Position numbers and translations under genes: made by a program
Shown: positions 1,816 to 24,939 of the stretch, one piece after another
Position numbering within the stretch: the stretch's first letter is position 1
Layout: each line of letters starts with the position of its first letter
The notes under the pieces: generated by a model
The model's database searches: none
What the model was told of the DNA's origin: nothing
What the model saw: only the letters and a program-made list of their open reading frames with translations
Source: a virus
Length of the DNA stretch: 24,939 nucleotides
Virus record (IMG/VR): IMGVR_UViG_3300035659_000092
Span: 1 to 24,939 of that record
Strand: one strand, 5' to 3'

Positions 1816-3978
1816 TTAAAACCCCGCTTGGTTAGCTGTTGACCTGCGAGCCTTGGACATTCTTGAATCAGGATCCAGCATCTGGTTAATAATGTTTTCC
1901 TCAATAGTGATCATCAGCATTCCATCGTCGCGCTGTTCAGTTTGCACGTTGTCAACTCGTCCAGTTGTGTTATTGACGATAGTAATATTGGAAGCTCCGC
2001 CGCCATTCTGCCCCATTATATCGCGCATTTGTGCAGCAGTGCGAGCGCGTGACGCGCCAGCAGGCATAATAACTTCTGCTTTGCCACGTTCAGCCATTTG
2101 ATACGCTCCACCACCTACCATGGAGCCGCCCTGCTCGCGAGCGCCACGGATTGCGGCCACGTTGGCCAAGCCAGCAACCACGGCAGCACCAGCAGCTATA
2201 CCGCCAAGTACGGGGCCAACATATGGGATTGATGCCATGGCAGCATAAGCACCAGTTGCCGCCTTATAGGTATCAATAGTTGCCGTTACGATAGCTGATG
2301 CTTTGTAAAGTGATGACTGTTCACCTAATGCTGATTTTAGATTGGCGGTCATGTTGCGCTGAGCATCTATGCCATCGTCAATTTGCTTTTCACGAATGCG
2401 GGATTCTTCTTTAACTCTAGCTAGTTCACCCTTCCTAATTTCTTCCTTGGCTTTTGATTGCTCATCAAGTATCTGAGTTTCTAAACTTGCGCGAGATAGC
2501 ACTGCATTAGTCTGAATCTCAGTTAGCGAGTCTTGGTATTGCTGCTCACTGATTAGTTTAAGATCGTAAGACTCTTTGACCTTTGTTTGTTTTTCTTGCT
2601 CCTGAACGTCGATCAGTTGCATCTCGCTAAGGTTTGATTGCCTTAGTTTCTCAAGGTATGCCTCTGCTTGCTTTTTTTGTTCAGCTAACTTTTCAGCAGC
2701 TCTAGTTTCTTCTTTTGATACTGGAGCTGCTGAAGGTGTTGATGGCGCAATTACTTTAAATTGCCCTAAGTCTGTAGATGGCTGCTTTTGCGCCTCATCA
2801 TAGGCTATTCTTAGCGCCTTTGCCGCCTCAAGTTCTTCTTTTGTTTTTGTTATTCGCTTATCTCTCTCTGCAAGATAAACGCTATTTGTAGCTAAAACAT
2901 TTTGATCAATCTGATTGAATTGGTCTGCGTACTTGGCGCTAAACTCATCAATAGTTAATAGCCAGTTTTCAGGATTAAGAGCCTCGCTCCATATCTTTGT
3001 TTTGTCAATAAATCCAGCCATTTCAACAGTGACGACTTGAGTTAGTGCGCGTCTATGTGTCGGTAACTGCCAAAAAGAGTCCGACATTAAATTTAATGAT
3101 TCTTCTGCGCTTATTCCTAATCCTAGCAAAGTTTCTTTTATGAACAGGCTTGCACTGTTTATTGCCGTTTTAACATCCTCAGTTGTAGAATCCCACTGCT
3201 CACCCCAAGCCTTGATCGATGCTAGCGCCTGACCAGAGCTAATCATTGCATTAAGTTCATCTAGCGCGGCAGTTGCAGACCTAACTTGATCTTCTATTAC
3301 TCCGCCAGCCCCTTGGCTTGATACTGCCCTAAATAATCCGTCCCAACTATCTTCTAAGTTTGACAGTGCACCGTCTAGTGTTGCCATCCTGTTGGCCATA
3401 GCGCCAGCAAATTGGTTTTCACCAAGAGCCATCAAGTAACCTTCAATCTCTGCCGCGCTCTTTCCTACCGTAGTTGTTACACCTTGGAAGGTAAATGAAA
3501 CTTTGTCACCCTCCTGCTTTGATTTAATGCCAAACTCTTTTAGGCGTTCAAACTCCAAAGTTGTAGCATCTGCCACAGCCTCGATCATTTGATTAAGGTC
3601 TTTCCCCATTGCCGCAGCGGTGTTACCGTAGCTTTGCAGGGCTTTTTGAGACGGAGTAAGGCCTAGACTTACAAGTTTTGTGAATGCAGTTACTGATTGA
3701 TCTAAAGCGTAAGGGGTATCTCTGGCAAACTTTTCAATCTCTTTAAATGCCAACGCAGCCTTTGCAGAGCTACCAGTCATTGTCAAAAGGCTTGCGTTAA
3801 GAATGTCAGTGCTTCTTGATACAGCGACTAGCTTGTTTAGTGCTGCGCCAGCGGTAGCCAAAATGATAACTGATGCCGCTGCCATTTTTGCTGAATCAGA
3901 TAGTTTATTTAAATCGCTTTCAGTCTGCTTAGCGCCTTTTTGCGTAACTCTAACTACAAGTGATGCTGAATCGGCCAT
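1816..3978 (-). CDS. Tape measure protein
   Basis: At 720 residues this is the longest complete gene, in the standard place after the tail chaperones. The N-terminal 240 residues have the common tape measure domain (VVRVTQKGAKQTESDLNKL, then SLLTMTGSSAKAALAFKEIE and FARDTPYALDQ). A long charged coiled coil covers roughly residues 385-545. A hydrophobic stretch near 575-610 (YVGPVLGGIAAGAAVVAGLAN) probably serves membrane passage. The C-terminus has GRVDNVQTEQRDDG and is basic at the end. The protein sets tail length: at about 1.5 angstrom per residue the tail would be near 110 nm, a family-based estimate. ATG at 3978 follows the previous stop by two bases. Confidence 0.93.
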   Translation of the reverse strand: MADSASLVVRVTQKGAKQTESDLNKLSDSAKMAAASVIILATAGAALNKLVAVSRSTDILNASLLTMTGSSAKAALAFKEIEKFARDTPYALDQSVTAFTKLVSLGLTPSQKALQSYGNTAAAMGKDLNQMIEAVADATTLEFERLKEFGIKSKQEGDKVSFTFQGVTTTVGKSAAEIEGYLMALGENQFAGAMANRMATLDGALSNLEDSWDGLFRAVSSQGAGGVIEDQVRSATAALDELNAMISSGQALASIKAWGEQWDSTTEDVKTAINSASLFIKETLLGLGISAEESLNLMSDSFWQLPTHRRALTQVVTVEMAGFIDKTKIWSEALNPENWLLTIDEFSAKYADQFNQIDQNVLATNSVYLAERDKRITKTKEELEAAKALRIAYDEAQKQPSTDLGQFKVIAPSTPSAAPVSKEETRAAEKLAEQKKQAEAYLEKLRQSNLSEMQLIDVQEQEKQTKVKESYDLKLISEQQYQDSLTEIQTNAVLSRASLETQILDEQSKAKEEIRKGELARVKEESRIREKQIDDGIDAQRNMTANLKSALGEQSSLYKASAIVTATIDTYKAATGAYAAMASIPYVGPVLGGIAAGAAVVAGLANVAAIRGAREQGGSMVGGGAYQMAERGKAEVIMPAGASRARTAAQMRDIMGQNGGGASNITIVNNTTGRVDNVQTEQRDDGMLMITIEENIINQMLDPDSRMSKARRSTANQAGF

Positions 3979-3980
3979 CG

Positions 3981-4789
3981 TTAAACCTTAGCCTCGCGGC
4001 ATTCAAATATTGCGTCAATATCCATGATTATCTCAATCTCGGGTGGCCGCAATGGTTTAAGCTGCTGCCTGTTGTAGCTTTCTAGTTCCGCATAATTTAA
4101 AGCGTTACGAGGCACTAGCATTATCGAATCTTCACCAACTGCCCTACCGAATCTAGCGCGCTTGTAATGCAAGTAAACATCAAGCATTTCACTTGGCAAA
4201 TCTGGCTTATCACGCTCGCGCTTCTCGATTTTATCAATGATACCCATCGAAGCTAAAGCTTGTTGATGAGCATCACCGATTGCGTCAAACTTGTCGATAT
4301 CTTGCTTAGCGCCAAACTCCCATCGGCAATAATCAAGCAGGGCATTTACTTTTTTGCGTGTTCTTCTGCAAGCTTATTGAATCGGCTGATAATCTGTTCT
4401 TGCAAGCTAATGAACTGCGGGGCGCGGAATGCGTTAAGCGCGGCTTGCAATCTCTCGCTTGTAAACTCATCGTCAAAGTCCCACCCTTCAACAATTTCAT
4501 GGCAAAAGGCGTCGCGCAGGTCTTTGCATGAGCTAGAAAATTCAATGTTGTAGTGCGAGTAATCTCCAATCTCTCTGCAATAGTTACGCAGTTCAACATT
4601 ATCTACTTCGTACTTTTCCAGTCTGCGCTTAATTGCGCTATTGAAAAGATATGATGCCTTAGATGACTTCTCGCCGAACGGGTCGATTAGTGTGATGTGC
4701 CCACCTGATAAAGTCATGTCACTGCGCAAAACTTCAAACGTGCGCTCATCTTGCGCCACTTCTTTAGCGCATAAATCTTCAAGTTTCAT
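3981..4789 (-). CDS. Tail assembly chaperone G-T fusion made by -1 frameshift
   Basis: This is the longer product of the paired tail chaperone genes, like lambda gpGT. The upstream frame (G) ends at 4346. The overlapping -1 frame is open from a stop at 4374-4376 through to 3981. Reading G to the slippery A AAA AAG at 4355-4349 and slipping one base back gives 147 residues of G plus 122 of T, about 269 in all. The junction reads AEEHAKK then VNALLDYCRWEFG. The T part continues with DKFDAIGDAHQQALAS and a C-terminal helical domain. A free-standing ATG at 4247 (88 residues) exists but would miss the first 34 residues of the T domain. T is thought to recruit the tape measure and tube protein during tail assembly. 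Confidence 0.8.
4346..4789 (-). CDS. Tail assembly chaperone G
   Basis: The short, unshifted product (147 residues) of the tail chaperone pair, encoded between the tail tube side and the tape measure. It is acidic and helical with a C-terminal helix (QEQIISRFNKLAEEHAKK). It should coat the tape measure during tail assembly and be absent from the virion. Two ATGs lie close together. The one at 4795 has AGGA directly against it, while the one at 4789 has the same AGGA six bases upstream, so 4789 is preferred. Here the late operon is interrupted by the plus-strand cassette at 4.9-7.0 kb, and the gene has its own promoter-like element at 4819-4831. Confidence 0.8.
   Translation of the reverse strand: MKLEDLCAKEVAQDERTFEVLRSDMTLSGGHITLIDPFGEKSSKASYLFNSAIKRRLEKYEVDNVELRNYCREIGDYSHYNIEFSSSCKDLRDAFCHEIVEGWDFDDEFTSERLQAALNAFRAPQFISLQEQIISRFNKLAEEHAKK
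4349..4355 (-). promoter_or_regulatory. Slippery heptamer A AAA AAG (programmed -1 frameshift)
   Basis: On the minus strand the last codons of G are GCA AAA AAG TAA, so the heptamer A AAA AAG sits in the correct phase just before the stop. It is the same heptamer as in E. coli dnaX. Slipping one base back enters a frame that is open to 3981. Downstream, TGCTT and AAGCA (with GCC/GGC inside) could form a weak stem, but no strong pseudoknot is obvious. Confidence 0.85.
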
Positions 4790-4818
4790 TGTCATTCCTG
4801 TTAGTTTGTGTTGTGCAT

Positions 4819-5307: not shown

Positions 5308-5522
5308 GTAAAACATCAAACCTAACTATTCACTGCTTAGGCATTGAGTCTCTAGGTGCCCCTACATTTGAAAACCGAAAGAAAGGCAAAGCCGCTATTG
5401 ATCTGGTCGATGTAAACCTGTCTGATTTAACTCAGGAGCTTATAACGCACTATGGTGCTGATAGTATACTTGAGCATATCGACTTGGAAATTATTAAATC
5501 ATATTTGGAGGATAGAGCATGA
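5304..5522 (+). CDS. Small accessory protein, unknown
   Basis: A 72-residue acidic protein whose ATG overlaps the stop of the previous gene (ATGA). The C-terminal half reads VDVNLSDLTQELITHYG then ADSILEHIDLEI, a helical pattern seen in other small phage proteins, perhaps a protein-protein interaction domain. I do not recognise a named family. The overlaps at both ends support that it is translated as part of the cassette. Confidence 0.7.
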   Translation: MSKTSNLTIHCLGIESLGAPTFENRKKGKAAIDLVDVNLSDLTQELITHYGADSILEHIDLEIIKSYLEDRA

Positions 5523-5863
5523 AAACAGTGGCATATTATAAGAGTCTTGGGTTAATAGACTATAATGCTGATGATGTCTTTGTAAATGATTTTGCAGAGG
5601 TTTGTGACGCATCAGCTTCGATAGTTGCTGGCTATGGCGATGGATTAACAATAACTTATTTTGCATGGCGCGAAAACACAGGGGTTAAGCCTGAGTTTAG
5701 TGGATTAGTTGAAATTATGGTGAGGAATGGAGGGGTTGGAATAGTTAAGTCAGATAGCGCATGCTGGGCTGTTAATTTTATGGATGTAAGCCGAGATTTA
5801 GATATTATAAAATGGCGCCCAAGTCTGAATCAGTCATCAATTGCAGAGCCAGACAACAAATAA
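5519..5863 (+). CDS. Accessory protein, unknown
   Basis: A 114-residue protein with an ATGA overlap to the previous gene and a good TTGGAGG site before the ATG. The C-terminal part (WAVNFMDVSRDLDIIKWRP) resembles small phage proteins that end or continue after IIKWRP. No catalytic motif is visible. The next gene is in the same reading frame after the TAA at 5861-5863, so the two could once have been one gene. However, the next gene has its own possible GTG start, so the stop may be genuine. Confidence 0.7.
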   Translation: MKTVAYYKSLGLIDYNADDVFVNDFAEVCDASASIVAGYGDGLTITYFAWRENTGVKPEFSGLVEIMVRNGGVGIVKSDSACWAVNFMDVSRDLDIIKWRPSLNQSSIAEPDNK

Positions 5864-5884
5864 TCAGCAATCCATAAGGCTTGG

Positions 5885-6550
5885 GTGGCTTTAGGTGGTA
5901 GTATCAGGCTCTACTTCCAAGATGCTAACTCGATTTGGCATGTTAGCGGTGCCAGCTATGTAAATGGTGAGTATTATTTTTCATCAGGCGACACTTCTTG
6001 CTTTATATCTGGCGCTAAGCTTGTTTGCACAGTTAAAGAATTCACCGAATACTGCGAAAAAATGGCAGCAGAAGAAAAGCGCATGGATATAATTGGTAAA
6101 AACGGCAATGACGGATTGCACTATGATAACACTGCGCAGCAGGTTGAGTCGCTGGCTATTAATGACAAGCCAATCTTCACTCAGGCAATGGCTGATGCTG
6201 GTGAGTTTCCGCCTGTTGGTTCAAAATTAACTCTATTTAAGAAGACGCACTTAAAAAGAATTGACGAGTTTTTAAATGAGGAGCTAACAATTATTGGAGT
6301 GTCAAGCTCTCTCGATGGTCAGCGCGTAATTACATGGGAGCATGAGCACATTGGTTTGTGTTGCGGCGTTTATTTAACTGGGTATTTCAAACCTATCGAC
6401 ACTCGCACCGACAGAAAAAAGATGCACGAAAAAATCCATAGCATAATGACTGATGATTCAGGTCGCTTTATGAAGTTTTCGGAACTTCCTGACTACACGA
6501 TTGAGTCTTATGACAAACTGATAGATACCTTTGGACTGCTAATATGCTAG
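5885..6550 (+). CDS. Accessory protein with DTRTD motif
   Basis: A 221-residue protein. The best start is GTG at 5885 with TAAGG five bases upstream; the first in-frame ATG is at about residue 60. Two parts are visible: an N-terminal beta-rich section (GSIRLYFQDANSIWHVSG), and a second section that begins PIFTQAMADAGEFPPVGSKL and ends YFKPIDTRTDRKKMHEKIHS. The second pattern belongs to a widespread phage accessory family of unknown function. The frame is continuous with the previous gene apart from one TAA and seven codons, so a read-through or former fusion cannot be excluded. It overlaps the next gene by seven bases. Confidence 0.7.
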   Translation: MALGGSIRLYFQDANSIWHVSGASYVNGEYYFSSGDTSCFISGAKLVCTVKEFTEYCEKMAAEEKRMDIIGKNGNDGLHYDNTAQQVESLAINDKPIFTQAMADAGEFPPVGSKLTLFKKTHLKRIDEFLNEELTIIGVSSSLDGQRVITWEHEHIGLCCGVYLTGYFKPIDTRTDRKKMHEKIHSIMTDDSGRFMKFSELPDYTIESYDKLIDTFGLLIC

Positions 6551-8192: not shown

Positions 8193-8612
8193 TTAAAGCC
8201 TCTCTGTGTAAGTGTGCCAAGTTATTGATATCGGCTTTGTCGCCCATCCGTTTTCTACAATTAGCCTTTCTGGTGAAAAGTTTGTTACCTCAACGCATAC
8301 GCCTGAGCGGGTAAATGTTGAACTAGGTTTGAATGCCAGGTTAAGCAGGTCTATCATTTTGTTTGTTGTGGCGCTTCCAAGATGAGAGGCATAGTTAACG
8401 TCTATCTGATAAATCCCGCTGCGCCTATCGGTGAAATATAGGTCTGCATCTTCAACTGGTACTGGCAGTAAAAAACCAGCTATGTAAGGCGTTGCCGTGT
8501 TGGTTGGCGCGTTAATATTCTCAAGCGCAACAATGATACTATTTGCAACTCCAAACGCTTTTAACGCTGCATCTAAGGCTTTCTGAATCGATTCTGTTAC
8601 ACCTTCTGCCAT
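8193..8612 (-). CDS. Tail terminator protein (DUF4128-like)
   Basis: A 139-residue protein like the DUF4128 family, which includes lambda gpU-type tail terminators that cap the tube at the head-proximal end. Support comes from the N-terminal helix (IQKALDAALKAF), the segment TPYIAGFLLPV, the SGIYQIDVNYASHLG strand-helix section and the C-terminal SITWHTYTERL. Its place just before the tail tube gene is usual. The ATG at 8612 coincides with the stop of the previous gene. Confidence 0.8.
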   Translation of the reverse strand: MAEGVTESIQKALDAALKAFGVANSIIVALENINAPTNTATPYIAGFLLPVPVEDADLYFTDRRSGIYQIDVNYASHLGSATTNKMIDLLNLAFKPSSTFTRSGVCVEVTNFSPERLIVENGWATKPISITWHTYTERL

Positions 8613-9052
8613 TAGATAAACTCCCCACTATCCACATCGTAAAGATAAACTTTACCACCAGTGCCGCTATCTCTTTTTTTGGCATGTTCAACCGCTTCTT
8701 TTGCGTTGCATCCAAAATCAAATGCAGATAATGCAAATTTCCATCCAGAACCTAATGCGTCGTCATTTGTGATTTTCTGCTTCCAGAATAATCCTTCTTC
8801 AGTGACTCCACATCTGTAAATAAATCCATTGTCTACAGTAAAAGAATTGCAATCTGGTATCTCTGTTGATTTTTCACCAAAGTACATTTTTATGAAAATA
8901 TCATAGTCGCAAGGGCTTCCGCATAGAAAAAACATAACACCATCGACAACCTCAAACTTTTCAGTTTGGTCACTCATTATGGTATTTACTCTAGAAGATC
9001 GGCTATCGCAAGCAATCTGCCTGTCTTTGTGGTTATAAGCTAAGGTTGTCAT
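8612..9052 (-). CDS. HslV-like Ntn-hydrolase (proteasome beta fold) phage protein
   Basis: A 146-residue protein of the proteasome/HslV fold that some phages carry among tail genes. The N-terminus MTTLAYNHKDRQIACDSRSS aligns with HslV TTIVSV..GDGQA: Thr2 could be the exposed nucleophile after Met removal, Asp16 takes the place of HslV Asp17, and Lys32 (DQTEKFEV) takes the place of Lys33. MFFLCGSPCDYDIF matches the HslV GFAGGTADA helix region, and GSGWKFALSAFDFGCNAKEAV matches the later Gly-Ser-Gly turn and helix. If active it would be a peptidase, perhaps self-assembled. It lies between the gp10-like and tail terminator genes with one-base overlaps. The role in the phage is unknown. Confidence 0.8.
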   Translation of the reverse strand: MTTLAYNHKDRQIACDSRSSRVNTIMSDQTEKFEVVDGVMFFLCGSPCDYDIFIKMYFGEKSTEIPDCNSFTVDNGFIYRCGVTEEGLFWKQKITNDDALGSGWKFALSAFDFGCNAKEAVEHAKKRDSGTGGKVYLYDVDSGEFI

Positions 9053-11223: not shown

Positions 11224-11520
11224 TTAGAATGAATCAGGAAGAGCAACTGCGCGAACAAACCACATTTGACCAGTTTGCAAGTTGGTCTTAGCTAACGCTA
11301 AGCAGCGCATTGATTCACCGTATTGATCAGTGGTTAAGTTGTCTGTTCTTTCTAACGGCACTCCATACATATCGTGATTGCGCGCGTTTTTACGCAAGTT
11401 ACTTACTTCTTCAATAAGTAAGGCCGTATTTTCTGCATGTTCTTTGATGCGATTCATCAAGTCTATTTCTTGCTGGCTTAGGTCACGATAGCCTTTAATT
11501 TTTTTATGCTGATTTTCCAT
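11224..11520 (-). CDS. acb2: Acb2-like anti-CBASS cyclic-nucleotide sponge
   Basis: A 98-residue protein with the Acb2 (T4 Vs.4-like) signature. The N-terminus reads HKKIKGYRDLSQQEIDLMNR and the C-terminus LAKTNLQTGQMWFVRAVA. Acb2 forms hexamers that bind and hold cyclic di- and trinucleotides made by CBASS enzymes, so that the effector is not activated. Tyr11 (GYRDL) and Lys26 (NRIKE) fall at the positions reported to bind the ligand in the Pseudomonas phage protein, as I recall. A good GAGG lies upstream of the ATG, and an extended -10 promoter may drive it. The connector gene follows ten bases after the stop, so it should also be read with the late genes. Family call is strong; activity is inferred. 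Confidence 0.85.
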   Translation of the reverse strand: MENQHKKIKGYRDLSQQEIDLMNRIKEHAENTALLIEEVSNLRKNARNHDMYGVPLERTDNLTTDQYGESMRCLALAKTNLQTGQMWFVRAVALPDSF

Positions 11521-15013: not shown

Positions 15014-15038
15014 TTCAATTATTAATAACCTAATTGAA
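15014..15038. repeat. Inverted repeat, 8 bp perfect, 9-base loop
   Basis: TTCAATTA (15014-15021) and TAATTGAA (15031-15038) are exact reverse complements. It is directly followed by a second hairpin. Confidence 0.8.
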
Positions 15039-15039
15039 T

Positions 15040-15057
15040 GCGCATATCTCTATGCGC
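15040..15057. repeat. Inverted repeat, 7 bp perfect, 4-base loop
   Basis: GCGCATA (15040-15046), TCTC, TATGCGC (15051-15057). It is a compact, GC-rich hairpin right beside the previous one. Confidence 0.8.
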
Positions 15058-15170
15058 GATAAGGTGCTGCGGAATTTGCATAATCCACACTTCACAGCGT
15101 TGACTTTGCTTGCATGTCTATCGCTTCATGCTGCGAGATATGACCACCTCCAGACGGATGTGAACCATAT

Positions 15171-15219
15171 AATGTGATTTAGCTGGATAGATTAAAGGTC
15201 TACTGCTGTTAATCACATT
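15171..15219. repeat. Inverted repeat, 9 bp perfect, with inner pairs
   Basis: AATGTGATT (15171-15179) and AATCACATT (15211-15219). Inside, AGC/GCT and TAGA/TCTA can also pair, giving a long broken stem with a seven-base loop. Confidence 0.78.
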
Positions 15220-15295
15220 GGTCAAGATGACTGCTTTACAGTTTGGATCAATGGATAGGTTTTTTAATCCTACCTACCTTTAGTCATCTTGCCAA
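15218..15295. repeat. Inverted repeat, 14 bp with one bulge, with inner hairpin
   Basis: TTGG, a bulged T, and CAAGATGACT (15218-15232) pair with AGTCATCTTG and CCAA (15282-15295). Inside, TAGG and CCTA, extended by GG and CC across a bulge, form a second hairpin with a T-rich loop. The minus-strand copy is about 73 bases from CAAGATG to CCA, tRNA-like in size, but it lacks tRNA features. Confidence 0.78.
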
Positions 15296-15637: not shown

Positions 15638-16051
15638 CTAAATTGATTCAGGAACAAGCTTGATGATGTTTTTAGCATGTTCACGATTCAATGTTCTATG
15701 GTTTGACATGTAAAATAAATCATCAGCTTTTCCGTATATTCCAATAAATTTACCAGCAATATATTCAAACTGATAATCCGCACCATCAACCAGTTCAATA
15801 GGCTTTTTGTGGATCTTTCCTACCTTTGGATTAATGCTCGCAACCCTAATCATTTTCCATCCACATCCAAGAGCAAAGTATATGTACTCACCACTTGGCG
15901 GGCCAACTCTTTCAAGCACTGATAATTTTCATTCAGCACCAGTGTCACTAAACTCATAAAGCCCTCCAATATCAAAACCATCGTCATTATGGTTGTATTT
16001 AATTTCATCCATCTTTGGCCTGCAATCTTGCACAAATATACCTTCTGACAT
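15638..16051 (-). pseudogene. Accessory gene with in-frame TGA at codon 41
   Basis: A frame of 138 codons from the ATG at 16051 to 15638 that is broken only by a TGA at 15931-15929. Before the stop it reads DIGGLYEFSDTGAE and after it KLSVLERVGPPSGEYIYF. In related phage proteins as I remember them, the segment YEFSD.G is followed by two residues and a Trp, exactly where the TGA stands, so TGG to TGA is the simple explanation. A GTG at 15919 has no ribosome binding site, so separate expression of the second part (94 residues) is less likely. It may be a pseudogene, a suppressed stop, or a base error. The first part alone would give a 40-residue peptide. Confidence 0.6.
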
Positions 16052-16072
16052 TTCGGCTACGCATTGGTTGAA

Positions 16073-16291
16073 TTAGTCAATGTTGCAAATAACTTTCCAA
16101 TAGTCATTTCCTATTCCGTTACTAAATGATGCCACAGAGTAGTCTCCAACAAAGTATCCTTCCCATCCATTTTTATGAATTGCTAGAACAACCTGATTTT
16201 GACCTTCATTAAAGTCATAACATTTATTTAGCTCACCTTGCAATGCATTGACAGCATCTACCGCTGTTTTATTTTTATGTGAATTTACCAT
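16073..16291 (-). CDS. Small accessory protein, unknown
   Basis: A 72-residue protein, the first gene of the minus-strand cassette at 14.7-16.3 kb. It begins with a polar helix (KTAVDAVNALQGELNKCYDF) and continues with a beta section (VVLAIHKNGWEGYFVGDYSV). A GGAG site lies about ten bases before the ATG, and a strong sigma-70 promoter lies 30 bases upstream. No named family is recognised. Confidence 0.68.
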   Translation of the reverse strand: MVNSHKNKTAVDAVNALQGELNKCYDFNEGQNQVVLAIHKNGWEGYFVGDYSVASFSNGIGNDYWKVICNID

Positions 16292-16322
16292 TTTTGTGAT
16301 TCTCCAAAATTAATGTGTATCA

Positions 16323-16351
16323 AATATAATAATCTAACATTTGTTTGTCAA
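16323..16351 (-). promoter_or_regulatory. Strong sigma-70 promoter of the 14.7-16.3 kb cassette
   Basis: On the minus strand TTGACA (16346-16351, exact), a 17-base spacer and TATATT (16323-16328, 5 of 6). The -35 overlaps the last codons of the MuF-like gene, so the cassette has its own promoter right after that gene. Confidence 0.75.
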
Positions 16352-17406
16352 ACTTTATTTTGCATATATTCAGCAATTCTCTTATCCGCTGAGATTAGCT
16401 GGTCAATAGTTAACTGCCTGCCTAGGTTATCTACCGATAGCTTTCTAAATTCTTCAGGAGACAAACCAGCGTTGCGGAATATCAAGCCTTTGGTTTTGCC
16501 AAGAACCTCATCTTGATAAGCTGCTGGTTGACGCAGAAGCATGTTGTAGTAAGACGTATTTGCATCAACGGCTTTACCGCCATCAGCCATGTTAGCCGCT
16601 CTTGTAGCTCCTTCATCCAAGAAATCAAACTCAGGCGATAATCTTGGTTCTGTGGTCGTCCTGCAAAGATAGTGAAAAGGCGGTTTTGGCTGATACGTAT
16701 CATTAAACTTATAAGTAACGGACTCATCCCATGCTCTGCATATTGGGCTAGTGCGTCCGTCTAATGTTATTACTATCCCATACCCAATAATTACATTGTC
16801 ATTTTCTCTGTAGGTTTCGAATCTGGCTTCACTTGCAATATGCGCTAATGATGTTTGAGCAACTTTCATTGCGTTGCCTTTTGAAATATCAGACAGCCCA
16901 CCAGCGCCAACAACGTCTTTGATAATCTGCCTAGTCGTCTGCCCTTGAATAAAGCCAGTCTTGACACCCATAACTAGGCGACTAACTTCTTCAGCTCCCC
17001 AATCATCAATCAGCTTTTCAAAGTCCAATGGCTTGGTGCCAAGTGCCAATGGCTGAAACTGTGCAGCAGCCCATACCTGACTAACGGTAGGCACTGTCAG
17101 CTCAACCTTAACGAATCCGCCAATAGTCTCAGCTTGATAATCAGCCTCGTACTTAGCGAATGATTTAAGCCCAACCTTAAGCTGTTCAAGCCACTTACCT
17201 GCTGGCTTGTCTAGCTGATTAGCCAGCGTCTCGATTAGCTTCTGTAGTCGCGCCTTGGTTCGTTTTTCGCTATCGAATCCAGCAACTCGCTTACGGATTA
17301 TCGATCGCATCTCGTCAAGGTATGGATTTACGCTATTTCCAAATCCTACACCTAGCTTTAGCGTGTTGGTGTGGTGGGCTAATAGCTGGTCGTTTAGTGG
17401 TTTCAT
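16348..17406 (-). CDS. MuF-like minor head protein
   Basis: A 352-residue minor capsid protein. The C-terminal half has the Mu gpF-like domain: FIQGQTTRQIIKDVVGAGG, then AHIASEARFETYRENDN, TLDGRTSPICRAWDE and PPFHYLCRTTTEP, with the Asp-Gly-Arg-Thr/Cys and His-x-x-Cys-Arg elements of the family. It usually sits near the portal inside the head and is needed for head assembly or DNA injection. Its start overlaps the stop of a 51-residue gene (ATGA). The stop lies inside the promoter of the next cassette. The N-terminal half is helical and family-variable. Confidence 0.88.
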   Translation of the reverse strand: MKPLNDQLLAHHTNTLKLGVGFGNSVNPYLDEMRSIIRKRVAGFDSEKRTKARLQKLIETLANQLDKPAGKWLEQLKVGLKSFAKYEADYQAETIGGFVKVELTVPTVSQVWAAAQFQPLALGTKPLDFEKLIDDWGAEEVSRLVMGVKTGFIQGQTTRQIIKDVVGAGGLSDISKGNAMKVAQTSLAHIASEARFETYRENDNVIIGYGIVITLDGRTSPICRAWDESVTYKFNDTYQPKPPFHYLCRTTTEPRLSPEFDFLDEGATRAANMADGGKAVDANTSYYNMLLRQPAAYQDEVLGKTKGLIFRNAGLSPEEFRKLSVDNLGRQLTIDQLISADKRIAEYMQNKV

Positions 17407-17558
17407 TGCTTTTTAGTTCCGCTATAAATCATTTTTTCTATCGCTGCATCTGCTATGTCTGCGGCTTTCTTTCTCGTACAAGAGATGTAATCACTGCGAT
17501 TAGTCTGCAAGAAATGCATTCCTTTTCTCCACGGAGACAATCTTTTATCTTTGTTCAT
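17403..17558 (-). CDS. Small basic protein before MuF gene, unknown
   Basis: A 51-residue gene with an ATGA overlap to the MuF-like gene, which argues for translational coupling. The sequence begins KDKRLSPWRKGMHFLQTNRS and continues with RKKAADIADAAIEKMI. It is strongly basic. An ATG at 17558 is the only start; a clear ribosome binding site is not visible. The function is unknown. It could be a head-associated small protein or the remainder of an accessory gene. Confidence 0.6.
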   Translation of the reverse strand: MNKDKRLSPWRKGMHFLQTNRSDYISCTRKKAADIADAAIEKMIYSGTKKQ

Positions 17559-17607
17559 AATAAAATTAACATAACCACATTATGCTCGATAGTCATAATT
17601 AATTACC

Positions 17608-17778
17608 CTACATAGGCTCAGTCTCTATATTTACCAAGTCCTGAATAGCATCTTGCATGGTATTACACTCACTAACCAATAGTGTATCGACTAAGAGTAA
17701 AAATTTTCCATTATTCTCAACTATCTTCCAAGCAGAGTATCGCTTACCTTTAATTGATATCTCATTGCATTCGTTCAT
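17608..17778 (-). CDS. Small accessory protein, unknown
   Basis: A 56-residue protein. The ATG at 17778 has GGAG eight bases upstream and comes after the stop of the previous gene, so a longer in-frame start at 17835 is rejected. The sequence has a beta section (ISIKGKRYSAWKIVENNG then FLLLVDTLLV) and an acidic end. It is one of a row of very small genes between the portal and the MuF-like gene. No family is recognised. Confidence 0.6.
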   Translation of the reverse strand: MNECNEISIKGKRYSAWKIVENNGKFLLLVDTLLVSECNTMQDAIQDLVNIETEPM

Positions 17779-17798
17779 AACAATAACTCCATAATCAC

Positions 17799-18038
17799 CT
17801 AGCCAAACAATCCACCAAGCAAAGCTATCACCCACTCAGGCGATTCGAATGTGTGAAATCCTGCACTCTTTACAGTATCAGCATCATACATTGGCGATTG
17901 CAATTCCCATTGTGCTAATTGGTGGTTATAAATATGCAAGCGATCATCTTCATCTAGCTTAGCGTAATCAACCATATTGCCAGTGATTCTGAAATACTCA
18001 GCACCTTATGGCGCTACCTTGCTTATGTTTTTAGTCAT
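17799..18038 (-). pseudogene. Accessory gene with in-frame TAA at codon 11
   Basis: An 80-codon frame from the ATG at 18038 to 17799 with a single TAA at 18008-18006. It reads MTKNISKVAP, stop, GAEYFRITGNMVDYAKLDED and continues to ESPEWVIALLGGLFG. The ATG has GGA seven bases upstream and is spaced two bases after the previous gene stop, as expected of the true start. The first ATG after the stop (codon 22) has no ribosome binding site. The stop is one change away from CAA, GAA or AAA. It could be a decayed gene, or a read-through gene. The product would be about 79 residues, of unknown function. Confidence 0.6.
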
Positions 18039-18040
18039 GA

Positions 18041-18223
18041 TTAAATCCAAATGTTAATTATTGTAGTTAGTGCAATTAGAAAAACAGCCACGCTAATTAC
18101 AGATAAAACTATCCAATCTAGCACTGGGCTTTTGTATGGCAAATCTTGGTAAAAATGCACAAGCAGTATTGCAATAACAGCCATAACCGCGAAGGTCTTA
18201 GTTATATTTTATAGTAATTCCAT
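18041..18223 (-). pseudogene. Two-helix membrane protein gene with in-frame TAA at codon 5
   Basis: A 61-codon frame from the ATG at 18223 to 18041 with a TAA at 18211-18209. It reads MELL, stop, NITKTFAVMAVIAILLVHFY and goes on to a second membrane segment (LDWIVLSVISVAVFLIALTT). Alternatively translation begins at the ATG at 18184, giving 47 residues with two membrane segments, but that ATG has no good ribosome binding site and falls at the edge of the first helix. The start at 18223 has GGTGAG upstream. Either a small membrane protein with a shortened start or a broken gene. Confidence 0.55.
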
Positions 18224-18248
18224 CACTCACCATCCTGATTAAATTATA

Positions 18249-18266
18249 CCGCGCCAGATAGCGCGG
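18249..18266 (-). terminator. GC hairpin after the 241-residue gene
   Basis: CCGCGC, six bases, GCGCGG, a perfect 6-bp stem six bases after the stop at 18272. The following bases on the minus strand are TATAATTT, so the T-run is weak. TATAAT also matches a -10 exactly, though no -35 is seen. Confidence 0.5.
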
Positions 18267-18271
18267 AAAGG

Positions 18272-18997
18272 TTAGATATTCTCGCCAAAGTGTTGAGAAT
18301 TATCCTTGTACTCAAACCTTCCAGAATCGAAAAGCTCTCCAAATATCTGCACTGGAGTTTGCTTTTGAGATTTAATTCCATGATTAATCGCAGCGGCAAT
18401 AAATAATTCGCGCTCTGATTTTTGCTTGATGCGGTAAACATAGCCACTAATCCACAAGTAATCATCAGCACGTAGCCATATACCGCAATCTGAATCAAAC
18501 TCAACCTTACAGCCAGCACGCCAAGCATTAAATAACTGCGCTGCTTGCTCATCACTCAATTCAGAAAGTGGCAGAGTGTTGTTGTGTGCGATCCATGATT
18601 CAGATTTATGCTCAATAAACTCTATTTTGCTGCCACCGCTTAGCGCGGCTGCTGAAAGGATGTAGCGCTTATCATCATCAGGCAGAATATCGTTTGTTCT
18701 TGCGTTTACTTCTGAAAATTCAGCCACATCACCATTAATTAACATGAAAATATCACCTACCGAAAAAGTTATCCCAGCATCCAAAAACTCTTTCAGCGTT
18801 GAGCAGTAGTCGGCAGGATTGCAAATTACCCAAGAATCATCGGCAATTTCATGAGAGCCATCTTCATCGGTTTCATCCAAAACTAACTCCTCGAAAATTC
18901 CAACCATCACTACATCTCCACTCCAATACTTTCCAGTAGTAACAATCTCACAATCTGGATTGGCTATCTTTGCTTCTGCGTATGTTTTGTAGTTCAT
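18272..18997 (-). CDS. Accessory protein with N-terminal KTYAEAKIANPD motif
   Basis: A 241-residue acidic protein. The N-terminus (NYKTYAEAKIANPDCEIVTTG) is quoted in part: KTYAEAKIANPDCE, which is a recurrent start of phage accessory proteins of unknown function. A middle segment DDSWVICNPADYCSTLKEFL with GITFSVGDIF follows, and the C-terminal 90 residues hold a second domain with LWISGYVYRIKQKSERELF. The protein thus looks modular, made of small domains shared among accessory genes. ATG at 18997 overlaps the stop of the 42-residue gene (ATGA). No catalytic residues or membrane segments are visible. Confidence 0.72.
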   Translation of the reverse strand: MNYKTYAEAKIANPDCEIVTTGKYWSGDVVMVGIFEELVLDETDEDGSHEIADDSWVICNPADYCSTLKEFLDAGITFSVGDIFMLINGDVAEFSEVNARTNDILPDDDKRYILSAAALSGGSKIEFIEHKSESWIAHNNTLPLSELSDEQAAQLFNAWRAGCKVEFDSDCGIWLRADDYLWISGYVYRIKQKSERELFIAAAINHGIKSQKQTPVQIFGELFDSGRFEYKDNSQHFGENI

Positions 18998-19122
18998 TTT
19001 GATTCTTCCTTCTGACTTTTTTTGAATTTAGCTACCATTTCATTTATTTCCTTTAGTAGCGGCTGAGGTATCCATATCTTACTTGATTTCCATTTGTTAT
19101 TTGGGCGACCTACTGATGGCAT
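18994..19122 (-). CDS. Small GRPNNKWKS-type protein (possible DNA binding)
   Basis: A 42-residue gene with a very good AGGAG site before the ATG at 19122 and an ATGA overlap with the next gene. The sequence MPSVGRPNNKWKSSKIWIPQ and then PLLKEINEMVAKFKK resembles the N-terminal part of small phage or plasmid DNA-binding proteins that begin GRP.. and continue with a beta strand and helix as in ribbon-helix-helix proteins. The rest ends in a basic helix. It may regulate its own cassette. First gene after a strong promoter. Confidence 0.7.
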   Translation of the reverse strand: MPSVGRPNNKWKSSKIWIPQPLLKEINEMVAKFKKSQKEESK

Positions 19123-19152
19123 TACGACTCCTAATGATTGCTTTCTGGAACC

Positions 19153-19180
19153 AATATATAGCAATTGTTTATGGTGTCAA
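19153..19180 (-). promoter_or_regulatory. Sigma-70 promoter of the 17.4-19.1 kb cassette
   Basis: On the minus strand TTGACA (19175-19180, exact), a 16-base spacer and TATATT (19153-19158, 5 of 6), 31 bases upstream of the ATG at 19122 and just after the portal terminator. Confidence 0.75.
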
Positions 19181-19195
19181 TAATTATCTTTAGTT

Positions 19196-19222
19196 AATAA
19201 AAAGCCCACGATTAAGTGGGCT
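19196..19222 (-). terminator. Intrinsic terminator after the portal gene
   Basis: On the minus strand AGCCCAC, a six-base loop, GTGGGCT and TTTTATT, starting seven bases after the portal stop at 19229. Confidence 0.88.
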
Positions 19223-19228
19223 AGTGGA

Positions 19229-20677
19229 TTACTCTTCTTCTGGTGGCGCTTCTGGTATGTCAACCGTCACGCTAGTATCAAGCGTTGGCGCAGGCGGTGG
19301 AGTTTGGCGCTTTAGTTCATCCTCAATTTCTTCATCGCTCCAGTTAGTTACACCTGAGCTTCTTAGTGCAGCTTGATATGCTCTGCGCGGCAATAGTCCT
19401 GCGTTGATATCTGCCATCCATGCAGCTCGGTCTTGAGCTGTCATCGGCTGCAAGAAGAACTCTTGATTAAGCTCGAATACGATTTCACCAGTAGCACCCA
19501 TCATCTCAGCGCACCACTTGATAGCTTGCTCGTATGCTGCGCTTACGTTGCTGGAAATGGTTGACATAATGGAAGTATCTGCACCGCGCTGAATCCTTGC
19601 TGACTCTGCGGTTATTTGGGCTGTTGGCGTCAATAGCTGAGCACCAGCCATTACCGCTTGGTTCTCCTTGTCGAGCATCAGGGTTTTAGCAAGGTTGCTT
19701 TCCTGCGCTTGTAGTAACTCAGAAGAGCCACCATAACCTAGGACGTGGCCGCTACGCGATCCCATTCTAATGCCGTTAGGGTTAGCCTCTTTGAATCGCT
19801 CAAGTGTCATCGACTCACTAGGGTAAAGCATCAGCGTAGGCTGCGAGCAAATAAAGCTAGATTCTTCAACATCAGCACTGTTTCGATAGTGACCTATATT
19901 CAAGTCAACTAAAGTTTCCAGCGGTGACGGGTCGATAGTCGCGTCATTGTTATCTGAGCCAATGAATACAAACGGGATTGTATTTCTGGGTGGGTTTACC
20001 TCGATTATTTCCACTTCACCAGTAAGCGAGCCTGTGCTATCGAACTTAAACAACCTTTGACGGTAACGACCTTCGACAATTTCTAACACTCGATACTGCT
20101 CGCCAATCAACACACTAAACTCATCTATGTCGCTGGTGTATTCGTAAACTTCACGCAGAACGATAAACTTTAATACCTGAGTGCTACCAAGCGTTTCATG
20201 TCGCCAGTTAATTATATTCTCTGCTGTGTACATTAAGATGCGAGGATTAAGCATCCCTGCGTTTTGCTCTGCCATAGTTGCCGCCGCAACTGGTGGAGCG
20301 TCAACAAGCAAACCAGCTCTACCAAGCGAATCATCCTCCCTTAGAGTGTCTTGCGCTTGTTGAATAACACCTAGGCCAGCCCCGTTACAGTTAGTTAGCA
20401 GATATTGCAAGACAGTTGGCAATTTATCCTCTGGCGGATTACGCATTACAGCGCCCACCATTCCTGATAGCGTGCGCTTGACGAAGTTATACAGCACCGC
20501 ACCATCTGCATAGTCTTCCTGCCTTTGCGCTCCATACTCTGGGTCTGGCTCACTTGAACCCACGTCACGCAGATAGCTTCTGCAATCGGAAGCCAGTACA
20601 TCGCGAATCTTCTTCCACTTCGGCGCATTTGCAACGTATTCACGGTGCGGCGTTTTAACTCCGATATTAGCACTCAT
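19229..20677 (-). CDS. Portal protein (DUF4055 family)
   Basis: A 482-residue protein of the DUF4055 family, a portal type of many siphophages. It has the N-terminal region (RDVLASDCRSYLRDVGSSEP, then ADGAVLYNFVKRTLSGMVGA, which is close to the family signature), a central NPPRNTIPFVFIGSDNND, and the stem and wing region FICSQPTLMLYPSES with SRSGHVLGYGGSSELLQAQE. The C-terminus is acidic-proline. The portal is the dodecameric channel at one capsid vertex, for DNA entry and exit. It overlaps the preceding gene by 11 bases and is followed by a terminator. Confidence 0.92.
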   Translation of the reverse strand: MSANIGVKTPHREYVANAPKWKKIRDVLASDCRSYLRDVGSSEPDPEYGAQRQEDYADGAVLYNFVKRTLSGMVGAVMRNPPEDKLPTVLQYLLTNCNGAGLGVIQQAQDTLREDDSLGRAGLLVDAPPVAAATMAEQNAGMLNPRILMYTAENIINWRHETLGSTQVLKFIVLREVYEYTSDIDEFSVLIGEQYRVLEIVEGRYRQRLFKFDSTGSLTGEVEIIEVNPPRNTIPFVFIGSDNNDATIDPSPLETLVDLNIGHYRNSADVEESSFICSQPTLMLYPSESMTLERFKEANPNGIRMGSRSGHVLGYGGSSELLQAQESNLAKTLMLDKENQAVMAGAQLLTPTAQITAESARIQRGADTSIMSTISSNVSAAYEQAIKWCAEMMGATGEIVFELNQEFFLQPMTAQDRAAWMADINAGLLPRRAYQAALRSSGVTNWSDEEIEDELKRQTPPPAPTLDTSVTVDIPEAPPEEE

Positions 20678-21074
20678 TAGCTGGCACCTTTAATTTACCT
20701 TTAATTTCACCGCCACAGGCAATATCTGGCTTTTCTCCCCACCCACAGATTGATCCACAAGGAGCATAAATCCAGAATGAACTAACAATAGCATCAGCAA
20801 CTCCATGCGTAGAAACCACCTTAGATATAGGATATCCTGCTATAACTTTTTCAGTGATAACCCCATTAATAAAAACCTTAACATCCCCGTGATCTATCCC
20901 TCTTGAATGAAGATATTCTAGGTTGTATGCATAGCTATCTATATCTCCAGCTAGCATTTGCATAGCATTAAGCACCTCAGACGGCAGCTTATGCATATTT
21001 GCAACCAAGACATCAAGTAGGCTTTTAACTGGCTCCATATCTGCAACATTAAATGTAATAATTGATTCAGCCAT
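20667..21074 (-). CDS. Unknown protein between terminase and portal
   Basis: A 135-residue protein coded two bases after the terL stop and overlapping the portal start by 11 bases. It has an N-terminal helical half (FNVADMEPVKSLLDVLVANM, LPSEVLNAMQMLAGDID) and a C-terminal beta half with GVADAIVSSFWIYAPCGSIC, GWGEKPDIACGG. There is no membrane or catalytic motif that I can identify. By position it may be a packaging or head protein, or an accessory gene added between two essential genes. Three cysteines are near the C-terminus. Confidence 0.7.
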   Translation of the reverse strand: MAESIITFNVADMEPVKSLLDVLVANMHKLPSEVLNAMQMLAGDIDSYAYNLEYLHSRGIDHGDVKVFINGVITEKVIAGYPISKVVSTHGVADAIVSSFWIYAPCGSICGWGEKPDIACGGEIKGKLKVPANEC

Positions 21075-21076
21075 TA

Positions 21077-22354
21077 CTATCTCCTACCCCAAGGGGTTAT
21101 TTGTATTTGTGCAACTGGTTTTACAATCGGCATTTCGTAAGCGATTGGGTATGTTGTGGCGTCATTTTGGTGATCGACTCCACCTGACTTATCTGGCTCA
21201 CCATTTTTGTCGTAAGCCTGCTGCTCAAGTCCTCTAGCGGTATTGGGGCATAGTGAATCGTTGATCCACACCTTGCCAGACTCAAGCACCTTATTCATCG
21301 ACAAAACCCTGTCTTTTACCGCTGGATTGCTTGGGTTAGCTCTTACCTCAAAGCCTGCCTGTTCAAACAATGCTATATCTGACGTACTAGCGTTGTTTGA
21401 TTTGCGATTATTCCCACTGGCATCAGGGTAAATGATAATCCTATGGCCCTTATCTTTCCACCGCTCTTTGATGACACGCACGACGTCTGGAGTATCGAAC
21501 AAGTCGCACAGCTCAGCTACCGCATGCCACCCGTTAGGCCGCTTAACGTAAACAGTCGATGCCATCTTACCAACGTTAAAGTCCTGACCTATGAATAGTG
21601 GTTCATTTTGCTGGATAGTTTCGCCGCTTCTGCATCTAACACGATCGTAGTTATGGTAAACAGTTCCGCTTGTTAAGTTGACGAATTGGCCATCAATATA
21701 GGCGTCAATCAACTGTTCGGGGTACGAAGCTCTAAGTGAGTCAACATAATCAGGTGGCAAGAATGGGTTTGATAATGTGCTGGCCTGAATCATATCGTAT
21801 CCATCAGCCCGATTAACCACCCATCTATCGTGAACAAACCTGAACCCCTCAGGAGTTGAGAATATTGAAACCGTATTAGGCGGCTTGTTTGATGTTGGTC
21901 TATAGGTATCTGGAAGCTGTCTGTTTCGAGCAATTATCTTAAACCAAGCCTCTGCTGCATGTTCTTTTTTTAAAGTATCAATCTCGTCTATCTTTGCCCT
22001 GAACGACTCGTAACCAACTATTCGACTAGGGTTGTCAAGAGTCCTTAGTACAAAATCACCAAGCTGGCCATTGCTTGTGTAGATAATATTCTCAGATTTA
22101 TTGTACTTGTACCTAACTCCCCACTGCTGAAGCTTCTCCTCCATTCTTGGCGCTAGGATTAATCGCACCAAGTCATAAGTGGGTTCGTACATGGCAATTA
22201 GAGATGACGCACCACCTTCCAAGCTGTCAAGTAGCGCAGAATTACACATAACCTCAGACTTGCCAGTGCCGAATCCAGCTATGAATGCTGGAAATTTGCA
22301 ATCAAGTGCCAAGAAATCAGCCTGAGGCTTAGTTGCTGATATCTTGACTTGCAC
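21077..22354 (-). CDS. terL: Large terminase subunit
   Basis: A 425-residue packaging ATPase and nuclease. The Walker A motif AGFGTGKS is at residues 26-33, the Walker B region FRAKIDEID at about 118-126, and the coupling motif SIFSTPEG at 163-170. The nuclease domain has FIGQDFNVG (Asp258), IIIYPDASGNNR (Asp311) and a final DHQNDATTYP. The best start is GTG at 22354 with GGAGG six bases upstream; a TTG at 22360 directly abuts that site and is rejected. It overlaps terS by 26 bases. The protein cuts concatemers and drives DNA into the head. Confidence 0.93.
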   Translation of the reverse strand: MQVKISATKPQADFLALDCKFPAFIAGFGTGKSEVMCNSALLDSLEGGASSLIAMYEPTYDLVRLILAPRMEEKLQQWGVRYKYNKSENIIYTSNGQLGDFVLRTLDNPSRIVGYESFRAKIDEIDTLKKEHAAEAWFKIIARNRQLPDTYRPTSNKPPNTVSIFSTPEGFRFVHDRWVVNRADGYDMIQASTLSNPFLPPDYVDSLRASYPEQLIDAYIDGQFVNLTSGTVYHNYDRVRCRSGETIQQNEPLFIGQDFNVGKMASTVYVKRPNGWHAVAELCDLFDTPDVVRVIKERWKDKGHRIIIYPDASGNNRKSNNASTSDIALFEQAGFEVRANPSNPAVKDRVLSMNKVLESGKVWINDSLCPNTARGLEQQAYDKNGEPDKSGGVDHQNDATTYPIAYEMPIVKPVAQIQITPWGRR

Positions 22355-22859
22355 TAACAACCTCCACCACTACGCGCTGAATTATCTTATCTTTATGATT
22401 GTCGTCATTAACTGCGGTGAAAGCATTTATACTTACGTGCTTACCAAGCAGTTCAAGATTTCTCAGCTTATCAGGCCACTTTACTTTTTTAGTGATCACA
22501 TCCATATCGCCAGAGCTTATTAGCTGAACGTCTATAGCAGAAAGGCTGGTGCGCCAAACCTTTGGCCATTCCTTAACTGGCTTAATGTCGCCATTGTCAT
22601 TGAGTATGTCAGCAACATCCATCTGGTCTATTTCAACAAGCCTTTTAAGTACATAATTGGCGTTTATATCATTAGCACTATTGCGAGCATCCATCAATTC
22701 AGATATTCGACTTTGAATAAGAGGTTTAGAGAAGTTTTCCGAGCCTATCCTTTGCGCGGTCTTTTCTGAGTAACCAGCCCTTATTGCTGCCTGAGTCATA
22801 TTAAGATCAATGATGTACTCTCGGCAAAATGTCTCCTGTTTTTTGGTTAGCTTAGCCAC
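22329..22859 (-). CDS. terS: Small terminase subunit
   Basis: A 176-residue DNA-recognition subunit of the terminase_2 family: AKLTKKQETFCREYIIDLNM then TQAAIRAGYSEKTAQRIGSE and the LIQSRISELMDAR helix. The N-terminal helix-turn-helix binds the packaging site. The GTG at 22859 with GGGGG four bases upstream is preferred over the GTG at 22883, and it gives the usual N-terminus (M)AKLTKKQ. It is the first gene of the late operon, after a promoter and terminator. Overlaps terL by 26 bases. Confidence 0.9.
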   Translation of the reverse strand: MAKLTKKQETFCREYIIDLNMTQAAIRAGYSEKTAQRIGSENFSKPLIQSRISELMDARNSANDINANYVLKRLVEIDQMDVADILNDNGDIKPVKEWPKVWRTSLSAIDVQLISSGDMDVITKKVKWPDKLRNLELLGKHVSINAFTAVNDDNHKDKIIQRVVVEVVSASQDISN

Positions 22860-22898
22860 TATGCCCCCAGCATTTACGCGCACCCAATGCGCATAGTG

Positions 22899-22927
22899 AT
22901 TGTAACCCTTTGCCGCATAAAATACAA
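22899..22927 (-). promoter_or_regulatory. Putative late promoter before terS (AAAGGGTTACAAT)
   Basis: On the minus strand TTGTAT (22922-22927), a 17-base spacer ending in AAAGGGT, and TACAAT (22899-22904). The motif AAAGGGTTACAAT is nearly the same as that before the tail chaperone (AAAGGGCTACAAT). It lies between the terminator and terS. Confidence 0.55.
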
Positions 22928-22944
22928 AACCCGCCGAAGCGGGT
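22917..22944 (-). terminator. Intrinsic terminator with UUCG loop before terS
   Basis: On the minus strand ACCCGC, TTCG, GCGGGT, then TTTGTATTTTA: a 6-bp stem capped by the very stable UUCG loop. It ends the accessory operon at 23.0-24.2 kb before the terS promoter. Confidence 0.88.
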
Positions 22945-22966
22945 AGTGATTGCTATAATATTTTAT

Positions 22967-23332
22967 CTACTTAACTAGGATTGCCGCGTACTCAATAAGC
23001 CACACTTTTGGAGCTATCAATATCTTCAACCACTCGATATTTATAAACAGCAGCCCAATAGCTGGCCATCCATGAGTAAAAAGCATAAATGGCTCGAAAC
23101 CATTTGAGCAAAAAACTGACACTGATTTATGATACCTCCTGACTATGTAGCCACCAACAACAATAAACAATATACCAAAAGCACACTCAAGAACCTATTT
23201 TACGCCATGCCACAGCATCAACTGCATCACTACATCTTGAATTTCTCCAGCCAAAAATTCCGCTCCAGCATCTAAATCACTTAACGCCTTTTCAATCATC
23301 TTTGTAATTGCTTGCTGTAGTTGTTCATTCAT
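22967..23332 (-). pseudogene. Membrane accessory gene with in-frame TAG at codon 46
   Basis: A 122-codon frame from the ATG at 23332 to 22967 with a single TAG at 23197-23195. Before the stop: NEQLQQAITKMIEKALSDLD and IQDVVMQLMLWHGVK. After it: VLECAFGILFIVVGGYIV and, at the end, ILIAPKVWLIEYAAILVK. The order of an N-terminal helix with EFLAGEIQDVV, a membrane helix and the ending APKVWLIEYA..VK is that of a known small family of phage membrane proteins, as I remember it, so both halves belong to one gene. GGAG lies nine bases before the ATG. The TAG is one change from TGG, CAG or AAG. It may be decay, suppression or a base error. Confidence 0.7.
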
Positions 23333-24288: not shown

Positions 24289-24591
24289 TTAGCTAATAAA
24301 GGCTACGTTTCCAATCCAGTTTAATTTTGATGGATTGAATTTTTTATTGTTGCTCCTGACTATATTCTCATGCGTATCAACACCGTCAAGCGACTTGTTA
24401 TTGCAATCAAGCATTTCTCCAAATCCGATAAAGTGAGCAACGTAATAATATCGGTTTCTTGCGGCTCCGTTATGACCGCAAGGTCTCCTTGTTATTTTGA
24501 AAGGCTTAACAACATAATCTCCACACTCAAAAGTTGTGCAGTGACCTTTGCTTATGTGCTTGTTTGCAACTCTTACCGTTAATTCCATCAT
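24289..24591 (-). CDS. Accessory protein, unknown
   Basis: A 100-residue basic protein directly after rdgC. The start codon overlaps the rdgC stop (ATGA), with GGAG upstream. It has [20 protein letters not shown], then [20 protein letters not shown], with three cysteines and three histidines that might bind metal. No family is recognised. The tight link with rdgC suggests a linked role or at least joint expression. A terminator follows. Confidence 0.65.
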
Positions 24592-24939
24592 TCACGCTCC
24601 AAACTTTCATATCCGCCAAAATCACCAGCCAGTGAATCCATCAATCCGCCAATCTCTTTAGTGCACAGAATAAAATCAGCATCGAGTCTAGCGGCTGCAT
24701 CATCAACTCCAACTTCATCATTAAGCGCCATAAATTCCTCAGCAAACTTAATGCGCTTTAGTGAACCATCTGAGAAAGCGATAAATGATATTGATTTGCC
24801 GTAGCTCAGTGCCAACTTGTGAACCTGCTTACCTGTTGCAATGTGGGCAAGCACTTCATCTTCGCTAAGGTCTTGGTCTTTGAATCGTGCAATGCCAGTT
24901 TCATCACAGCGTAATTCTGCTTCGTTTTGCATTTCAAAC
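24588..24939 (-). CDS. rdgC: RdgC homologue, C-terminal part (runs off right edge)
   Basis: The frame is open from the right edge to the stop at 24588 (116 codons). It matches the C-terminal third of Rdg[21 protein letters not shown], then [33 protein letters not shown] and [18 protein letters not shown]. RdgC is a ring-shaped DNA-binding protein of about 300 residues that limits RecA access to DNA. Phages also carry it, presumably to influence recombination. The ATG at 24932 is not taken as the start because the homology needs more N-terminal sequence, which lies outside the window. Confidence 0.85.

Follow-up and report, generated by a model that had tools for sequence, protein, structure and literature searches.

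Probable nonsense inactivation of accessory genes in a siphophage fragment whose tested virion genes are whole

Why should several accessory genes of one phage be interrupted by in-frame stop codons, when the genes for its particle are not? This question is raised by the IMG/VR virus record IMGVR_UViG_3300035659_000092, whose 24,939 bases make up the entire window (the whole stretch of DNA analysed here) and which is probably a fragment. The window carries a siphophage module with the terminase small and large subunits, portal, head morphogenesis protein, scaffold and major head protein, followed by head-tail connectors, tail tube and tape measure. A preliminary description of this DNA, made from its letters alone, had reported four accessory genes with exactly one in-frame stop each. 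All four frames and their stops were borne out, on the minus strand: TAG 23195-23197 in gene 1, TAA 18209-18211 in gene 2, TAA 18006-18008 in gene 3 and TGA 15929-15931 in gene 4. The count was too low: there is another stop in gene 4, TAA 16073-16075, and probably one more in gene 3, TAG 17799-17801; moreover, the stop at 5861-5863 splits a fifth gene (5519-6550, plus strand). In total there are seven stops in five genes, the stops at 17799 and 5861 being less certain. We consider it likely that these are nonsense-inactivated accessory genes of the moron type, carried by a siphophage lineage that is otherwise functional and probably infects Shewanella.

The clearest case is gene 1 (22967-23332, minus strand), in which TAG 23195-23197 follows 45 codons. 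It belongs to the phrog_3054 family of membrane proteins, annotated as 'TMhelix containing protein' in vibriophages. Searched separately, the two halves of gene 1 match this family in order, at positions 1-44 and 100-137 of 137, and read through the TAG they give a full-length match (1-137 of 137, E 2.5e-23). Homologues were found in 173 phage records, 171 of which cover at least 80% of the query. The full-length IMG/VR homologues that we fetched have assorted sense residues at the position of the TAG and no internal stop.

For genes 3 and 4 the comparison rests on L082, an IMG/VR contig of 5.8 kb which has the same gene order as the window around these two genes and presents a nearly matching intact module. 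Gene 4, as first delimited, has a continuous homologue there, with 58% identity over residues 1-137. The L082 frame (2566-3237, 223 amino acids) is single and uninterrupted; it starts further upstream and takes in the separate open reading frame (ORF) 16073-16291, and therefore the ancestral gene 4 is one moron-like gene, 15638-16291 on the minus strand. The TGA at 15929-15931 aligns with TGG (Trp) in L082. At TAA 16073-16075 L082 has GAA (Glu), and Glu is also found in the window's paralogous domain at 5885-6550. The sequence GGAG stands before ATG 16291, and none is evident before ATG 16051. Just upstream, a near-perfect sigma-70-like promoter, TTGACA-17-TATATT (16351-16323, minus strand), is conserved in L082.

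Gene 3 (17775-18038, minus strand) would have about 87 codons if read to TGA. Its counterparts, 92 amino acids long, are uninterrupted both in L082 (908-1186, 57% identical) and in Shewanella phage ZP9 (WOZ57854.1). Both have Glu at the position of TAA 18006-18008, the L082 codon being GAA. The TAG at 17799-17801 cuts the C-terminal hydrophobic helix, through which both homologues run on; it aligns with GCG in L082, two changes away. Past this TAG the frame runs for another seven codons before it reaches a TGA, which shares bases with the start codon of the following gene (ATGA, 17775-17778). Because the homologues continue and the frame stays open up to this overlap, the TAG is probably a second premature stop of gene 3.

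Gene 2 (18041-18223, minus strand) encodes a small two-helix membrane protein, with TAA 18209-18211 after four codons. It is not present in L082. In ZP9 the same slot, between the homologues of 18272-18997 and of gene 3, is filled by a protein of the same length (WOZ57855.1, 61 amino acids). MELL*NITKTF... in the window stands against MDILNNLAQTF... in ZP9, and the two proteins can be aligned from the first Met as far as the closing NIW, ZP9 having Asn where the window has the stop. The true interruption of genes 1, 3 and 4 is thus decided by alignment with homologues, which are continuous across the stops, and that of gene 2 is carried by slot, length, a matching start and weak sequence similarity.

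Gene 5, which had gone unreported, consists of 5519-5863 and 5885-6550, in the same frame on the plus strand with TAA 5861-5863 between them. The domains that flank this stop are fused in one ORF in ZP9 (WOZ57853.1, 262 amino acids) and in phage 1.076.O (AUR85512.1, 244 amino acids). Possible homology of the inner domain begins upstream of the alternative start GTG 5885. This stop is less certain than most, as an additional inner domain is present in the window and translation could restart at GTG 5885. The inner parts of genes 4 and 5 (15638-16291 and 5885-6550) show weak mutual similarity through the L082 form of gene 4 (E 2e-5), which suggests that domains are exchanged in a modular way among accessory genes of Shewanella phages.

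Across all seven stops the frame is unchanged, and no frameshift was found in the five broken genes. Past the four reported stops the frames stay open for 75, 55, 68 and 96 codons in genes 1 to 4; with TAA 16073-16075 included, the open runs extend over 47 to 96 codons. Open runs of these lengths or longer come after about 1.0%, 3.3%, 1.6% and 0.3% of the stops in a first-order Markov surrogate of the strand, so that for these four stops frame length by itself is suggestive and not decisive. The codons flanking the stops share no context. The start signals speak for the ancestral frames: GGAG precedes the start of gene 1 as it does that of gene 4, and the possible restarts after the stops in genes 1-4 have no recognisable ribosome binding site. 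The preliminary description had also proposed that every stop could have arisen by a C-to-T or G-to-A step. This deamination-type signature fails at the two stops for which the neighbouring codon is clearest, 18006-18008 and 16073-16075, as both show GAA to TAA relative to L082, a G-to-T change on the coding strand. Among the stops for which the L082 codon is visible, only TGA 15929-15931 fits a G-to-A change.

The particle genes present a different picture. As had been claimed, the head, connector and tail proteins that we tested have no internal stop and match PHROG families. One virion gene, the tail assembly chaperone (3981-4795, minus strand), lies in two ORFs, which match phrog_15027 at 1-138 and 173-258 of 259; the other virion genes tested are whole. 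In the chaperone the slippery sequence A AAA AAG stands directly before TAA 4346-4348 and marks a programmed -1 frameshift site. The chaperone shows that genuine recoding in this DNA carries a recognisable signal, and the seven stops have no such signal.

Because the virion genes are whole and the accessory genes are broken, a working phage that sheds genes it does not need is the simplest account. The small proteins of the five genes would not be needed for building the particle, and substitutions creating stops could then be tolerated and retained, be it through drift once selection had relaxed or in the form of short-lived nonsense alleles within the population. The broken genes would yield no useful product, and their loss may be neutral or mildly beneficial. 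It is probably recent, because the frames have stayed open beyond the stops and, at the DNA level, gene 4 still shares 91% identity with L082 in its 3' part. In-frame stops in prokaryotic genes are widespread and short-lived; they are over-represented in genes of the category 'Mobilome: phages and transposons' and their lifetimes are on the scale of population polymorphism (PMC7918605). We also estimated the ratio of nonsynonymous to synonymous differences (pN/pS) against L082. In the conserved segments it was 0.30 for gene 3 and 0.46 for gene 4, few codons from one sequence pair, compared with 0.21 for the intact gene 18272-18997, 0.15 for the head morphogenesis gene and 0.06 for the scaffold gene. 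On so few codons, the values for genes 3 and 4 point in the direction of relaxed selection.

Several points weigh against the loss of these genes. Seven stops with zero frameshifts are unusual for free decay. From what we would expect of mutation spectra, free decay should bring small insertions and deletions too, and it is a minor puzzle that none of the seven lesions is a frameshift. The pN/pS values are well below 1, although the divergence lies partly on the L082 branch. The second stop of gene 3 is probable on thin homology. Homology is thin for the interruption of gene 2 as well: its sequence match is weak taken alone, and position carries the argument. Gene 5 could be naturally split, given that a weak AAGG precedes GTG 5885. 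Finally, this phage is represented by one virus record, without a second isolate.

The genes might still be in use. The stops could be leaky, with low-level readthrough supplying a little full-length protein, so that they act as dampers of expression. Frames open past every stop, the lack of frameshifts and pN/pS below 1 would fit this, and it has been argued that many bacterial genes with in-frame stops and no other sign of decay are not pseudogenes (PMC7918605). The stops are, however, of three types in unrelated contexts, and at these places none of the homologues has retained a stop. In gene 4, and probably in gene 3, there are two stops, so that the loss of product would be multiplied. 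We consider leaky stops unlikely, since ribosomes would have to read through two successive stops of different types in gene 4 and probably also in gene 3. A stronger version, in which stops of all three kinds, made by substitution only, are kept as leaky, reversible off-switches of moron genes whose frames are under selection through low readthrough expression, seems very unlikely. If it were true, the phage could reduce its accessory functions and recover them through a single reversal. It is equally unlikely that the genes have been split into shorter working parts, with a downstream ATG, GTG or TTG 3 to 10 codons after the stop as the new start. Such starts exist at 23170, 18184, 17975, 15919 and 5885, the last with the AAGG mentioned above; the first four lack a recognisable ribosome binding site, gene 4 would have to work as three pieces, and the homologues are single ORFs.

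The remaining explanations place the cause outside the genes themselves. If the sequence were a prophage decaying in its host, the presence of terminase relatives within long chromosomal contigs (e.g. L123 and L125) would agree with it, as it indicates that the wider family includes temperate phages. Cryptic prophages, however, lose genes for packaging, replication and release first (PMC7744054), and the structural and packaging genes tested here, those of head and tail among them, are intact; host flanks and the genes for lysis and lysogeny lie outside the 25-kb fragment. We regard prophage decay as very unlikely. Suppressor tRNAs or a reassigned stop codon, in the phage or its host, deserve next to no credence. 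The genomes of related phages are about 40 kb, which leaves about 15 kb absent from the window, and a tRNA could lie there. Neither the window, which has no tRNA, nor 26 related loci yielded a suppressor, however; all three stop codons would need suppressing, and the virion genes have no internal stops. The occurrence of all three types had already been taken to speak against reassignment of one codon, and it does rule this out; it also leaves no common recoding signal. Errors in base calling or assembly deserve as little. The source is a virus record from IMG/VR, of which no second copy was found. About one in twenty random substitutions creates a stop, so that the roughly 2.5 kb with the seven stops should contain well over a hundred errors. 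Such a density would also break the roughly 15 kb of virion genes, among which no broken gene was seen, and frameshifts, the usual long-read error, do not occur. Thus, from the readings left open in the preliminary description, the loss of accessory genes alone survives, and deamination, suppression, errors and decay of a prophage fall away.

As a rough baseline, we counted genes split by a single stop over 162 loci (2.1 Mb). Antisense ORFs dominated the initial count; filtering left 55 candidates, which mostly lay near gene ends or in weak alignments. The splits that we judged convincing were a handful in the 2.1 Mb, e.g. L016 7611, L027 2483 and position 23197 of the window. The screen has little power for rare accessory genes. 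The stops at L027 2483 (TGA) and L016 7611 (TAG) are single in-frame stops in otherwise well conserved genes, at positions that Glu occupies in other loci; they possibly reflect dead genomes or base errors. The small ORFs called separately in the window, 16073-16291, 15929-16051, 5519-5863 and 5885-6550, are probably pieces of longer genes, a caution for the calling of small phage ORFs.

The window shares genes or short stretches of DNA with ZP9, 1.076.O (listed host Shewanella) and phage 1/4, and its accessory genes in common with Shewanella phages suggest that Shewanella is probably the host. The closest terminase in IMG/VR, that of L002, is 88% identical. The intact accessory gene 18272-18997 (minus strand), which adjoins gene 2, has homologues in ZP9, L082 and many vibriophages. 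A host search with its protein in 395 genomes, from the order of a Colwellia metagenome-assembled genome, gave no match, and genes 2 and 3 are absent from six of its distant relatives. Scans for further relatives of gene 2 and gene 5 in IMG/VR, and of gene 4 in GTDB genomes, found none beyond L082; the same was true of the L082 form of gene 4 in IMG/VR and phages.

Some accessory genes are unbroken. An intact gene among the late genes (11224-11520, minus strand) encodes an Acb2-type anti-CBASS protein (PF24729, E 1.1e-19; PDB 8h2j, p26, E 2.6e-22), a predicted cyclic-nucleotide sponge. At 8612-9052 (minus strand), between the tail terminator and the Neck1/tail completion gene, lies a phage HslV/proteasome-like peptidase (phrog_1040, E 9e-30). 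An RdgC-like exonuclease gene at 24588-24938 (minus strand; PF04381, E 8e-25) is cut by the end of the contig. The stretch 15026-15220 is conserved and has no called gene. It consists of two adjacent blocks with the tRNA missing: in ZP9 the same blocks (24746-24809 and 24973-25023) flank a tRNA-Gly, in Shewanella phage 1/4 one of them adjoins a pseudo-tRNA and a tRNA-Gly, and in L082 other DNA lies between the two. The RNA folding z-score of the stretch is -1.95, and an Rfam search of it gave no match. It looks like a tRNA cassette site.

The phenomenon itself is real but ordinary, as in-frame stops in genes of mobile elements are already documented (PMC7918605). The window offers a compact example in which accessory genes are lost while particle genes are whole, and with the intact module of L082 one can date the loss and test its causes. 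That all the lesions are nonsense changes poses a modest puzzle of readthrough versus decay. The window resembles the prokaryotic in-frame stops surveyed by Belinky et al. (2021, PMC7918605) in its single substitutions to any stop and in frames that are open on both sides. The ratio of nonsynonymous to synonymous substitution rates (dN/dS) below 1 and the over-representation of phage genes in that survey are further likenesses. The stops of the survey are common to at least two genomes, whereas each stop here occurs in one virus record. Code 15 crAss-like phages (PMC9523058) also have in-frame stops in phage genes, but there one stop is reassigned, and here three types occur and only accessory genes are affected. 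The programmed -1 frameshift of tail chaperones likewise places two ORFs over one family profile, as at 3981-4795, but it is recoding at a slippery heptamer, which the seven stops lack. With phage moron genes (PMC7067206) the five genes share variable presence, such as the absence of gene 2 from L082, and, in gene 4, an own sigma-70-like promoter between late genes; in contrast to those morons, the genes of the window are broken.

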